Assembly: GCA_030745755.1 (NCBI GenBank)
Contig: JASLOA010000027.1
Location: forward strand, 62,001-126,000
DNA from: Kiritimatiellia bacterium
GTDB taxonomy: Bacteria; Verrucomicrobiota; Kiritimatiellia; UBA8416; JABMPJ01
Reading direction: 5' to 3'
DNA length: 64,000 bases
Each line of letters starts with the position of its first letter. Positions within the stretch are counted from its first letter, which is position 1. This document shows positions 9,741 through 42,218 of this stretch, one piece after another. Made by a program: the position numbers and the translations under genes. A model generated the notes under the pieces. It saw nothing but the letters and a program-made list of their open reading frames with translations. It was not told where the DNA came from and searched no databases.

Positions 9741-9788
9741 GTAGAAAAAGGGGAAGCGCCCCCATCCCGCTTGTCGGGGTGGGGGCGC
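9741..9788 (-). terminator. Intrinsic terminator after metF
   Basis: On the minus strand a 14-bp stem (GCGCCCCCAYCCCG arms at 9756-9769 and 9775-9788, one wobble, 5-nt loop) is followed by TTCCCCTTTTTC. It lies 36 bases beyond the metF stop. A second small hairpin (CAGCCC...GGGCTG, about 9796-9818) sits between. Confidence 0.75.
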
Positions 9789-9823
9789 GTCCGCACAGCC
9801 CCCCCGCAAGCAGGGCTGGGGTG

Positions 9824-11458
9824 TCAGTGCCCCGACCCCTTCGCCGGTTTCGGATCCGGCAGCAGCGGCGCCGACTGCTCGCCTTCGCGAGGTGCGTGGT
9901 GGTCACGATCAAGGTAGGTGTTGGCCCAGGCGGATGTGCCTTCGAGGTTGGGGTTGTAGATGACCGTTGGTCCGTCGAGCATGGCTTGAGACTCGCCGTA
10001 GTACTTGGTTCTGTCATAGGCCCGGGCCCAGATGCACTGCTTGTCGTCCAGTTCACACTGTCCGTCATAGGATCCGCCGCAGGGCCCGTTGCGTGTGTTC
10101 TTGGAACAGGCCGAGCGGGGACAGAGATAGGCGCAGTCGGCCAGGGAGCAGTCGCCGCAGTCCTTGCAGCGGAACATCATCTGCTTGGAGACGTGCTCAA
10201 TCCCATGCATGACTTTGCTTGTTGCGGTCTTTGCGGCGCCTTCACCATCAATGGCCCCGTAGAGCTTCTTCATCAGGTTGTAGAGCCCCTTCTCGCGTGT
10301 GAACGCTGCGCTGTGAACCATGCGGCTCATGCGGTAGGACGCGCTCACATTCCGCGTGGACTTGGGGTGCAGTAGCGAGTCCAGGTATTCCCGGTTCATC
10401 CGGCTGTAGTCGCTCAACTTGGTCTCGGGGTCCTGCTCCCAGAGATAGAACTCGTCTTCAACCGGGAACTGGAGTTCCTGGGCAAAGATCTTCCAATCGT
10501 CCACTCCGAATCCCTTGGACTGCTGGATAATACCGGCAAACGTCTCCGGCTTCGCCACGCCGGCGATATAGCCGGCGTCGTAGCCGAGACCTTTGAAGAT
10601 GGCCAACTGTTTGGCCGCCAGCTCGCGGAAGAAGGCGCGTCCCTTGTCGGGGCCCGCGGCATACTTCTCGACCAGTTCGAGCAGCTTGTTGCTGACCACG
10701 CAGCCGGGAATGTCGTTGCGGTTGAACATCTTTGCGACGAACTTCGAGAGCAGGTAGACATTTCCGATCAGGGGCACGTCGAGTCCGGCCCAGCGACAGA
10801 AGAGTTGCAGTTCCTGGAACTTGCGCATGTCGTAGCCCAACTGCGGAACCACCCACTGGGCGCCGCACTGCACCTTCTTGGCCAGCTTGAAGAGCTGCGG
10901 CAGATACTCGCGCTCGTGCTTCTTGAACGGTGACACGGCGCATCCGACAAAGAAGTCGGCGGGCGGCAGTGCCTCCGTGCCGCCGCGGCGGGCCGGGATC
11001 TCCAGCCCGTCGTTCATGGCCTTGAGGAGGGAAATCAGACCGACCGAGTCGAGATCGAACACCGGTGATGCGTTGCCGCCGTAACCTGAAACCGGGTGGT
11101 CGCCGGTCAGGGCCAGGATGTTGTTGAACCCTTCGGACGCGCTGCGCCAGGCGGCTGATTCGAGTCCGTTGCGGTTGAGGTCCTTGCAGCTCAGGTGAAT
11201 GACCACCTCTTTGCCCAGTTCGGTGATCCGGTGTCCGAGCCAGTCCGCCGGCAGCATCGGGTTGCCGCCCGGGTTGTCCGTGACGGAGATCCAGCTGAAG
11301 TGGGGGTTCTGTGCCAGCTCTTCGGCTTCGTGCAGCAGCTTGCCGTCAACGCCATCCGGGCGTGGCAGTCCGCGTGAGCTGACCAGCTCGACACCGTAGT
11401 GGAAGGTCTCGCCTGTCAGCATTTCACGGAAGGTTGTTCTGTTTTCCTGATCAGTCAT
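9824..11458 (-). CDS. metF: Methylenetetrahydrofolate reductase with fused MetV-like Cys-rich domain
   Basis: A 544-residue protein. The N-terminal TIM-barrel (about 1-310) is a MetF, with early HYGVELVSSRGLP, SWISVTDNPGGNP and ALTGDHPVSGYG. It reduces methylene-THF to methyl-THF. The C-terminal part (about 400-510) carries a dense cysteine set, CKDCGDCSLADC, CPRSAC and GPCGGSYDGQC, matching the MTHFR C-terminal/MetV family, which in acetogens is a separate FeS or zinc-binding subunit. The start ATG follows AGGAGT. It stands alone, between an intrinsic terminator and aconitase, next to the sulfur-reduction genes; methionine synthesis is the simplest role. The fusion suggests a non-NADPH electron donor, which is inference. 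Confidence 0.9.
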   Translation of the reverse strand: MTDQENRTTFREMLTGETFHYGVELVSSRGLPRPDGVDGKLLHEAEELAQNPHFSWISVTDNPGGNPMLPADWLGHRITELGKEVVIHLSCKDLNRNGLESAAWRSASEGFNNILALTGDHPVSGYGGNASPVFDLDSVGLISLLKAMNDGLEIPARRGGTEALPPADFFVGCAVSPFKKHEREYLPQLFKLAKKVQCGAQWVVPQLGYDMRKFQELQLFCRWAGLDVPLIGNVYLLSKFVAKMFNRNDIPGCVVSNKLLELVEKYAAGPDKGRAFFRELAAKQLAIFKGLGYDAGYIAGVAKPETFAGIIQQSKGFGVDDWKIFAQELQFPVEDEFYLWEQDPETKLSDYSRMNREYLDSLLHPKSTRNVSASYRMSRMVHSAAFTREKGLYNLMKKLYGAIDGEGAAKTATSKVMHGIEHVSKQMMFRCKDCGDCSLADCAYLCPRSACSKNTRNGPCGGSYDGQCELDDKQCIWARAYDRTKYYGESQAMLDGPTVIYNPNLEGTSAWANTYLDRDHHAPREGEQSAPLLPDPKPAKGSGH

Positions 11459-40260: not shown

Positions 40261-40296
40261 TTAGCCGCGAAAGAACGCAAAGAACGCAAAGAAAGA
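40261..40296. repeat. ACGCAAAGA phrase repeat (copy 1)
   Basis: TTAGCCGCGAAAGAACGCAA, then AGAACGCAAAGAAAG, filling the gspF-gspG gap. The tail runs into the GGGGGAGG ribosome site of gspG. A near-identical copy starts at 41360. Confidence 0.85.
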
Positions 40297-40710: not shown

Positions 40711-41352
40711 TTGAACGCTTCCTGTCATCGCCCACAGCACAAGCACGCCTTCACCCTCATCGAGGTGTTGCTGGTCCTGGTGATTCTTGGGGTGATGGTT
40801 ACGGTGATGTTGCCGCAGGTGATGAGCTCGTTGCGTGAGCACGAGCTGCGTAGCGCGACACGGGTTGTGATGTCGTCCGGTCGTCATGCCATGAGCCTGG
40901 CCGTGCTCTCGCAGCGCCAGATGTCGGTGGTCTACGATCTCGAGAATACCACGCTAACGATCAAGGCCGCCACAAGGCTGAAGCGCCCTGATGAGGTGAG
41001 CGAGGAAGCGGAAGATGTCTCGCCCGACCCCGTCGACCCCCTCGCGGCGTTCGCCGAAGAGGCGTGGCAGACAGACGATGGTGGCGGCGAGACCCGCGCC
41101 TCGGACGGTGCCTACGATGGTGCGGTAGCCATCGTGGACGAAGAGGTGGTTCACGAATTCAACGGCATCACGTTCAGCTTTATAGAGGTGGAAGGTGAGG
41201 ATGGGTACCGCAGTCAAGACGGGACCCACACGATCATCTACTACACCAACGGCCGCTGCACCCCGCACACGATAGGCATTGAAGATGGCGACGGCGCCAC
41301 CGCCACGATCGAAATCGACGCGCTCTCTTCGGGGCGGGTGTTGAAGGATTAG
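40711..41352 (+). CDS. gspH: Minor pseudopilin GspH
   Basis: A 213-residue minor pseudopilin. The leader MNASCHRPQHKHA is followed by FTLIEVLLVLVILGVMVTVMLP. The residue before the cut is Ala rather than the usual Gly. The start appears to be TTG 40711, 7 nt after the gspG stop, with only a weak GAGTG. An insertion rich in Glu/Asp/Pro (about 85-130) is unusual for GspH. The late GFT/GTD-type end (GTHTIIYYTNGRCTPHTI) supports GspH rather than GspI. Confidence 0.85.
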   Translation: MNASCHRPQHKHAFTLIEVLLVLVILGVMVTVMLPQVMSSLREHELRSATRVVMSSGRHAMSLAVLSQRQMSVVYDLENTTLTIKAATRLKRPDEVSEEAEDVSPDPVDPLAAFAEEAWQTDDGGGETRASDGAYDGAVAIVDEEVVHEFNGITFSFIEVEGEDGYRSQDGTHTIIYYTNGRCTPHTIGIEDGDGATATIEIDALSSGRVLKD

Positions 41353-41359
41353 GGAAGGA

Positions 41360-41688
41360 TTAGCCGCGAAGGAACGCAAAGAACGCAAAGAAAGAATACT
41401 GAACCACGGAGACACAGAGACACGGAGGAGATGAGAGAGAAGAGGAAGACGAGAAGATGTTGCAGAAATCGCCTGGCTCGGAATACCGAGCCAAACGATT
41501 TCTGCAACGTTGCTCCAAAGGAGAAAGAGGAGCGCGCAGAGGGGCATATGTCCGGTGCTGAAATGCCACTCCGAGGACTCCTCCCTCTCCCTGAGGACAA
41601 CGTCGCGAGAATCGAGGTGCGCCGTATCCGGCGCGCCCGATTCTCGCGACATTCCCTTCTCCTCCGTGCCTTCGTGCCTCCGTGGTTT
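41360..41688. repeat. Composite palindromic repeat unit before gspI
   Basis: This is the only stretch over 300 bp in the secretion operon without a gene. It holds, in order, a second TTAGCCGCGAA...ACGCAAAGA copy (41360-41394), an ACCACGGAGACACAGAGACA word (from 41403), nested hairpin C (13-bp stem 41459-41471 with 41496-41508; inner GGCTCGG-AATA-CCGAGCC), and nested hairpin D in the opposite sense (13-bp stem 41602-41614 with 41638-41650; inner loop TATC, i.e. GATA reversed). It ends with the inverted CTCCGTGCCTTCGTGCCTCC word (41661-41680, then GTGGTTT). Confidence 0.85.
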
Positions 41689-42078
41689 CTCCCATCTCCA
41701 TCTCGCTCCGGCTTCACGCTTATCGAGGTGATGATTGCGGCGGCGATACTCGGGGTGTCGTTGGGGGTATTGTTGACGGCGGCGAGTCGGTGTCTGTTGG
41801 TGCTGTCGGTGGCCACGCATTACCAGGATGCGCAGTTGGCACGCAGCATGGCAGAGGTCGAGTATCCCCTGATCGTGACCAACGAACTGGATGACATAGC
41901 CGTCCCGCAGATGACACTCGACAATGGGATGACGTTTGAGCGGGTGGTCGATGAGGATGATGAGGACGAGGATAACCTGTACGTAGTCACAACCCGGGTG
42001 GGCTGGAGTGCGCGTGGAGCGGAGCGCGTGGACGAGGTCGTGCAGTATGTTTATCACGACGAGGACGATGATGACTGA
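41674..42078 (+). CDS. gspI: Minor pseudopilin GspI
   Basis: A 134-residue minor pseudopilin with mature start FTLIEVMIAAAILGVSLGVLL. GTG 41674 gives a normal 13-residue leader, PPWFLPSPSRSG before the cut. Longer in-frame starts (ATG 41431, 41548, 41563) would make leaders of 50 to 94 residues translated from palindromic repeat sequence, which is unlikely. No good ribosome site precedes the GTG, which lies in the right arm of the repeat unit. The C-terminal VTTRVGWSARGAERVDEVVQYVY fits GspI. Confidence 0.85.
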   Translation: MPPWFLPSPSRSGFTLIEVMIAAAILGVSLGVLLTAASRCLLVLSVATHYQDAQLARSMAEVEYPLIVTNELDDIAVPQMTLDNGMTFERVVDEDDEDEDNLYVVTTRVGWSARGAERVDEVVQYVYHDEDDDD

Positions 42079-42083
42079 GCTCC

Positions 42084-42159
42084 GGCCAAGGCGAGGGTCT
42101 CTCGCCCGACCGTCCCGGAATACCGGGCCGCTAAGGAGCGAGTGACCCTCGCCTTGGCC
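42084..42159. repeat. Nested hairpin with 16-bp stem and AATA-loop (element B)
   Basis: GGCCAAGGCGAGGGTC (42084-42099) pairs perfectly with GACCCTCGCCTTGGCC (42144-42159). A further 5 bp (CTCGC/GCGAG) extends inward past one mismatch. The loop holds CCCGG-AATA-CCGGG (42114-42127). The flanks CTCC...TCCGC match the 28586-28820 element, but the variable stem differs. It sits in the gspI-gspJ gap. Confidence 0.85.
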
Positions 42160-42218
42160 TCCGCAAGGGGTAGACGTCCGAGGAAGACATTGATGGCAAC
42201 AGGTGCAGAAAGTTGGAA

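Follow-up and report, generated by a model that had tools for sequence, protein, structure and literature searches.

Rickettsia palindromic elements (RPE) and intragenic REPs are dispersed palindromes that lie in frame within functional genes and are tolerated in unrelated proteins (PMC10969869; PMC3733652). REPs of the REPIN/GTAG and CGTC types are dispersed as inverted hairpin doublets, mostly beside the 3' ends of genes (PMC3116915; PMC3733652), and there is precedent for such doublets nested in longer palindromes (PMC3733652). Bacterial MITEs are short and non-coding and carry terminal inverted repeats, a form consistent with origin by deletion from a coding element (PMC10969869). For the GxxExxY protein family (TIGR04256/PF13366, PDDEXK_3), no earlier description of mobile or array-bounded genes was found in the searchable literature, which leaves out most subscription papers; no stated role for genes of this type was found either, and a paper recovered by the literature search mentions GxxExxY merely as a neighbouring domain.

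The window analyzed here is a stretch of 64,000 nucleotides from a Kiritimatiellia bacterium (GCA_030745755.1, contig JASLOA010000027.1, positions 62,001 to 126,000), and it was compared with four congeners (G001–G004; Kiritimatiellae/Lentisphaerae/Verrucomicrobia metagenome bins), all five assemblies being fragmented. Between a gspH-like and a gspI-like gene lies a unit (41402–41687) composed of two hairpins in opposite orientation inside inverted outer arms (Table 1). This unit probably belongs, as a non-autonomous and MITE-like form, to a family of mobile palindromic elements in which a GxxExxY gene is present in the coding members, here supplying the start of gspI. It is MITE-like in being multicopy and dispersed, short, bounded by terminal inverted repeats and without an intact gene of its own. 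In contrast to bacterial MITEs, it has terminal repeats made of short-period arrays that vary in flavour, no target duplication was seen, and the gene of its coding partner is of the nuclease-like GxxExxY type and not a known transposase. It differs from RPE and intragenic REPs, to which it is likened without a comparison of RPE sequences, in its array arms, its pair of hairpins, its GxxExxY-carrying relative and its action at a prepilin start and leader, and from REPIN/GTAG and CGTC REPs in its longer stem (13 + 8 bp), its outer ~8-bp arrays and the lack of a GTAG tag or neighbouring RAYT.

Table 1. Features of the gspH–gspI junction, in window coordinates.
Feature	Position	Strand	Details
gspH-like pseudopilin gene	40711..41352	+	stop codon TAG 41350–41352
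Left accessory array TTAGCCGCGAAGGAACGCAAAGAACGCAAAG	41360..41391	+	GCAAAG type, period 9
Left outer arm AACCACGGAGACACAGAGACACGGAGGAG...	41402..41436	+	35 nt
Hairpin 1	41459..41508	+	13-bp stem GTTGCAGAAATCG/CGATTTCTGCAAC, inner 8-bp stem, AATA loop
Spacer between hairpins	41509..41598	+	counterpart of the sequences that adjoin GxxExxY in the coding element
Hairpin 2	41602..41650	-	same family, opposite orientation; 13-bp stem GTCGCGAGAATCG/CGATTCTCGCGAC, loop TATC
Right outer arm (reverse complement AACCACGGAGGCACGAAGGCACGGAGGAG...)	41653..41687	-	35 nt
gspI-like minor pseudopilin	41674..42078	+	from GTG 41674; leader VPPWFLPSPSRSG, then FTLIEV; probable start inside right arm

The two opposed hairpins with 13-bp stems proposed in the first-pass annotation were recovered at the same coordinates, and since the TATC loop of hairpin 2 reads GATA on the other strand, both have an RATA-type loop on the inner stem. 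The outer arms, which the same annotation took for inverted words at both ends, are inverted arrays of ~8 bp (AACCACGGAG/ACACAGAG...) and are 83% complementary over 35 nt, although the second word on the right is GGCACGGAG and not GACACGGAG. Compared with shuffled DNA, the unit folds with z = -11.4 and the hairpins with z = -10.9 and -9.3, and because the unit also has 44 DNA matches in its own genome (63 contigs, 3.07 Mb) it cannot be ascribed to chance. A GCAAAG-type array like the one to its left also adjoins the copy in locus L002, where the same two modules (GCAAAG array and unit) follow in the same order, and a degraded version is found in G002. The last 10 nt of gspH (GAAGGATTAG, stop included) are repeated one base downstream of the gene (41343–41363); these repeats stand side by side and do not flank the unit, and no clear target-site duplication was seen at the compared sites.

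Most copies in the genome, as counted from the searches, are near-full and 70–75% identical to the unit, the best other copy matching at E = 7e-62. A covariance model built from 21 hairpins found 33 distinct hairpin places in this genome (one weak), among them 13 pairs, and by our own count the inverted arrangement is identical in 13 of 13, as in the inverted doublets of REPs and REPINs. The hairpins covary: 60 cells are doubly changed, compared with 19.2 in shuffles, and only five show one-sided standard changes. The scarcity of G-U steps in the pairs suggests, without proving it, maintenance of the palindrome at the DNA level. All five genomes of the genus (the window's own included) have the hairpins, which are almost absent elsewhere, with two weak cases in the order and none in the other 50 genomes searched, whereas the outer array word ACCACRGAGRCACRGAG spreads more widely, occurring in 35 of 289 genomes across the phylum (the reversed control gave one hit). 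Many units lie ~20 nt or less from a stop codon, as judged from simple ORF calls without a gene finder. A plasmid search with the unit DNA gave no match, Rfam returned only weak, chance matches of miRNA or sRNA type far below gathering, and the literature held a single unrelated match for the array words and nothing relevant on Kiritimatiellia repeats. The array word ACCACGGAGRCACRGAGRCACGGAG was also seen in 33 stretches of viral contigs from IMG/VR (L166–L198), some as inverted pairs, which could be host flanks.

The unit might instead serve chiefly as intercistronic mRNA structure, affecting transcript stability, attenuation or processing in the gspH–gspI interval, with its effect on the gspI start incidental. 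Its predicted fold is very stable, and REPs lie mostly downstream of genes, many of them plausibly transcribed (PMC3733652). This role is nevertheless unlikely, given that the two-sided pair changes and few G-U steps are those of DNA-level palindromes; moreover, congeners carry unrelated elements or none at the junction and therefore speak against a conserved RNA function. It is far less credible still that the unit at this junction is an assembly artefact: the assembly is in 63 contigs and repeats can misassemble, but this copy differs by ~25% from the relative closest to it, the neighbouring gspH and gspI are both intact, and the two left arrays are retained at this junction in G002.

The dispersed inverted doublets, found chiefly beside gene 3' ends, are also what an ordinary REP/REPIN-type doublet moved by a RAYT and nested in an unrelated long palindrome would look like, and the genome encodes five Y1_Tnp proteins, for three of which the REP transposase model is the best match. 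This origin is quite unlikely, however, since all Y1_Tnp scores fall below the REP_Tyr_transpos cut-off, the Y1_Tnp loci lack these hairpins within about 1.5 kb, and the GTAG/GTGG tag is absent, with GTTG/CAAC on the inner flank of the hairpins and AT outside (alignment A2); in addition, two of the hairpins precisely enclose the one GxxExxY gene of the genome. Membership of the RAYT/REPIN system was thus rejected on tag and transposase, the hairpin having been sought around all Y1_Tnp genes and found at none. The CGTC REP super-family (8–9 bp stem, 4–5 nt loop, CGTC tag, CCA tail) was also set aside, as the unit has a 13-bp plus an 8-bp stem and no such tail. The idea that the outer arrays are a mere insertion site of a REP doublet was abandoned once the coding element was found.

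That coding element, which we prefer as the relative of the unit, contains the sole PF13366 gene of the genome (C45:96796–97146), located between hairpins at 96703 and 97285 that are in turn enclosed by inverted CACAGAG/CACGGAG arrays. Its protein is a clear member of the GxxExxY family (TIGR04256, 149.6 bits; cut-off 35) and had no match by sequence in PADLOC or PDB. The element has the same ends as the unit (83% identical on the left, 89% on the right), and the alignment reaches to about the edges of the gene, so the interior of the unit corresponds to sequence abutting the GxxExxY gene. In other genera the same arms enclose different contents, among which one ORF looked like GxxExxY.

Array borders recur at other GxxExxY genes. 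With the best inverted match between 400-nt flanks as the measure and 16 as the pass score, 22 of 30 PDDEXK_3 loci from relatives of the class passed, compared with 1 of 57 mock positions taken within those loci and 1 of 30 loci of other genes. The threshold was set after this first set had been viewed, which makes a second set from the phylum the cleaner test; there, 20 of 24 loci had array flanks (mock, 1 of 48), although a few of the high scores reflect ordinary hairpins and not arrays (L259, L263). Pooled over both sets, 42 of 54 loci have array flanks but only 2 of 105 mock positions do (Fisher P = 5e-25), and the other 12 loci failed the test. By inspection, array arms are present at 9 of 9 further loci of the genus, in the flavours CACGGAT, GCAAAG, CACGGAA, ACAGGAT, CGCAGAT, CGCAGAG and CACGGAG. 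GxxExxY genes with array arms also occur on plasmids of Bacteroides finegoldii, Bernardetia, Sphingomonas and Gemmatirosa, while the Persicobacter and Treponema plasmid loci did not pass the array test. In the Sphingomonas parapaucimobilis plasmid (L241), the gene has inverted CGCGAAG-type arms and sits between fabD and fabG. A GxxExxY element with CACGGAA arms at the apparent mnmE–mnmG junction of two congeners (L232, G001 C24; L236, G002 C8) is probably a shared insertion. Genes of the GxxExxY type are present in about half of the sampled genomes of the phylum (95 of 195) and also in other phyla.

The gspH–gspI gap was compared with that of relatives, as the first-pass annotation had advised. 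From the gspH stop to the cleavage motif it measures ~360 nt in the window and 22, 109, 219 and 145 nt in G001, G002, G003 and G004, respectively. The junction of G001 is empty, and gspI there has its own start, ATG AGG CCC CAA TCC GGA (MRPQSG/FSLIEV); the other four genomes, the window's own among them, have array elements at this place. G002 has only the left arrays, with the gspI leader MNHGGTETQRSAG encoded by a CACGGAG array, and in G003 the right arm of a GCAAAG-type element encodes most of the leader MTLLSRLLRSFAVNPSPAPPGRRQG, so that two congener leaders are array-encoded. A ACAGGATT-type element reaches almost to the motif in G004, where the pre-motif sequence is array-encoded and no canonical start is present near the motif, the nearest being far upstream. 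None of the four congeners has an orthologous longer leader, the finding that the first-pass annotation had named as refuting its reading of the gspI start. Other gsp junctions too have elements specific to a species, with a tight spacing in one or more congeners, and in more distant relatives short-period arrays were found in 12 of 45 junctions (shuffle p <= 0.02 each; about one expected). A GCAAAG array (40264–40295) stands in the gspF–gspG gap directly upstream of gspG, in G002 and G003 as well. The gspI–gspJ gap is filled by a distinct hairpin element, CTCCGGCCAAGG...GGAATACC...CCTTGGCC (42085–42165), whose type recurs in the same gap of G004 and in the gspF–gspG gap of G001 and G004 and is not found in the gspI–gspJ gap of G002 or G003.

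The name gspI rests on the gene order E-F-G-H-I-J-K and on the prepilin motif (TIGR02532, 23.9 bits, cut-off 16.3; PF07963 matched), as the NCBIfam gspI model TIGR01707 scores only 14.3 bits, below its cut-off of 44.35. Mature GspI is 68–87% identical among the genomes, with pairwise dN/dS of about 0.05–0.13, and is under purifying selection. The gspI frame is open from 41353, the base following the gspH stop, across the entire unit, and all five of its canonical in-frame starts (ATG/GTG/TTG) in the window fall inside the unit, at 41431, 41548, 41563, 41617 and 41674, those at 41548 and 41563 being ATG codons in the spacer. The absence of a canonical start outside the unit, together with the empty junction and own start of G001, supports the earlier proposal that the insertion replaced the original start of gspI.

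Which codon is used is an inference. The first-pass annotation had chosen GTG 41674, and this codon is indeed in frame with gspI and part of the right word; the leader that it gives is of normal length, 13 aa, within the range of the congeners (6–25 aa where the start is clear). Its use remains unproven, as the codon has an unpaired probability of 0.00 in the mRNA prediction and no ribosome site is evident upstream. Translation could begin instead at ATG 41548, leaving GTG 41674 unused and producing a leader of 55 aa encoded in part by hairpin 2 and the right arm. The predicted accessibility of this ATG is 0.85, AGAGGGGCAT immediately precedes it, the frame is open throughout, and copies of the unit are open in 32 of 72 frames compared with a shuffle expectation of 9.8 (no more than 17 in any of 200), with in-frame read-through in two other genes. 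We still find this start improbable beside the short congener leaders, though prepilin leaders generally vary in length; even so, the unit would supply the gspI start. Prepilin leaders are also hydrophilic, have Gly or Ala as their last residue and are cleaved off at the cytoplasmic face (PMC10191384), and an array-encoded leader could therefore be tolerated.

Relatives of the unit are also found within other genes. A truncated unit lies in frame within the ATPase domain of a histidine kinase (L023:1459–1560; G000 C13), a site that is without an insert in G003 and holds a one-hairpin unit in G002. Another truncated unit is in frame within rlmD (L137; G000 C13, about 9759–9878); this site is empty in G003 and in G004, the latter having one array insert elsewhere in the gene, and other array inserts occupy the same loop in G001 and G002. 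RlmD with its insert still scores above the curated cut-off of TIGR00479. In lying in frame within functional genes, these relatives resemble both Rickettsia palindromic elements and intragenic REPs, and in its way of working the unit is comparable to a MITE tolerated inside coding genes.

Coding and gene-less members share outer inverted arms of ~8-bp arrays, and some elements of this genus have a pair of opposed hairpins as well, which in the window's own genome stand on either side of the gene of the coding member. In the mechanism proposed for the unit, it would most likely have arisen through loss of the GxxExxY gene and then entered the gspH–gspI junction, displacing the original start of gspI. 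Translation would now begin within the unit, most likely at GTG 41674 in the right arm, and prepilin peptidase would cut off the 13-aa leader; with the leader cleaved off, the mature pseudopilin would be unchanged. No movement or excision of the unit was seen, and the copies are old, which counts against the proposal. The association with GxxExxY does not prove that its product mobilizes the arms, since insertion could simply favour the arrays, or the gene could be carried only as cargo, and the history might be the reverse, the coding copy having gained its gene. The GxxExxY element family is still the best home for the unit, with movement by GxxExxY inferred. The tie to a dispersed repeat and to GxxExxY genes could not be seen from the window sequence alone.

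The array borders of GxxExxY genes and the gene-less short copies make the idea of a mobile element directly testable, and such arrays also produce spurious or altered protein ends in annotation. The junction in five congeners is a natural series that shows how an insertion can take over the translation initiation of a conserved operon gene, the change that it brings being absorbed by a disposable prepilin leader. More broadly, and with the case for and against about evenly balanced, GxxExxY genes may define a widespread, undescribed class of selfish elements whose palindromic ends are built of short arrays and whose enzyme is a PD-(D/E)XK-type nuclease in place of a transposase. These elements and their gene-less derivatives would insert at the ends of genes, in many cases inside operons, and time and again alter the start codons and leaders of downstream genes such as pseudopilins.
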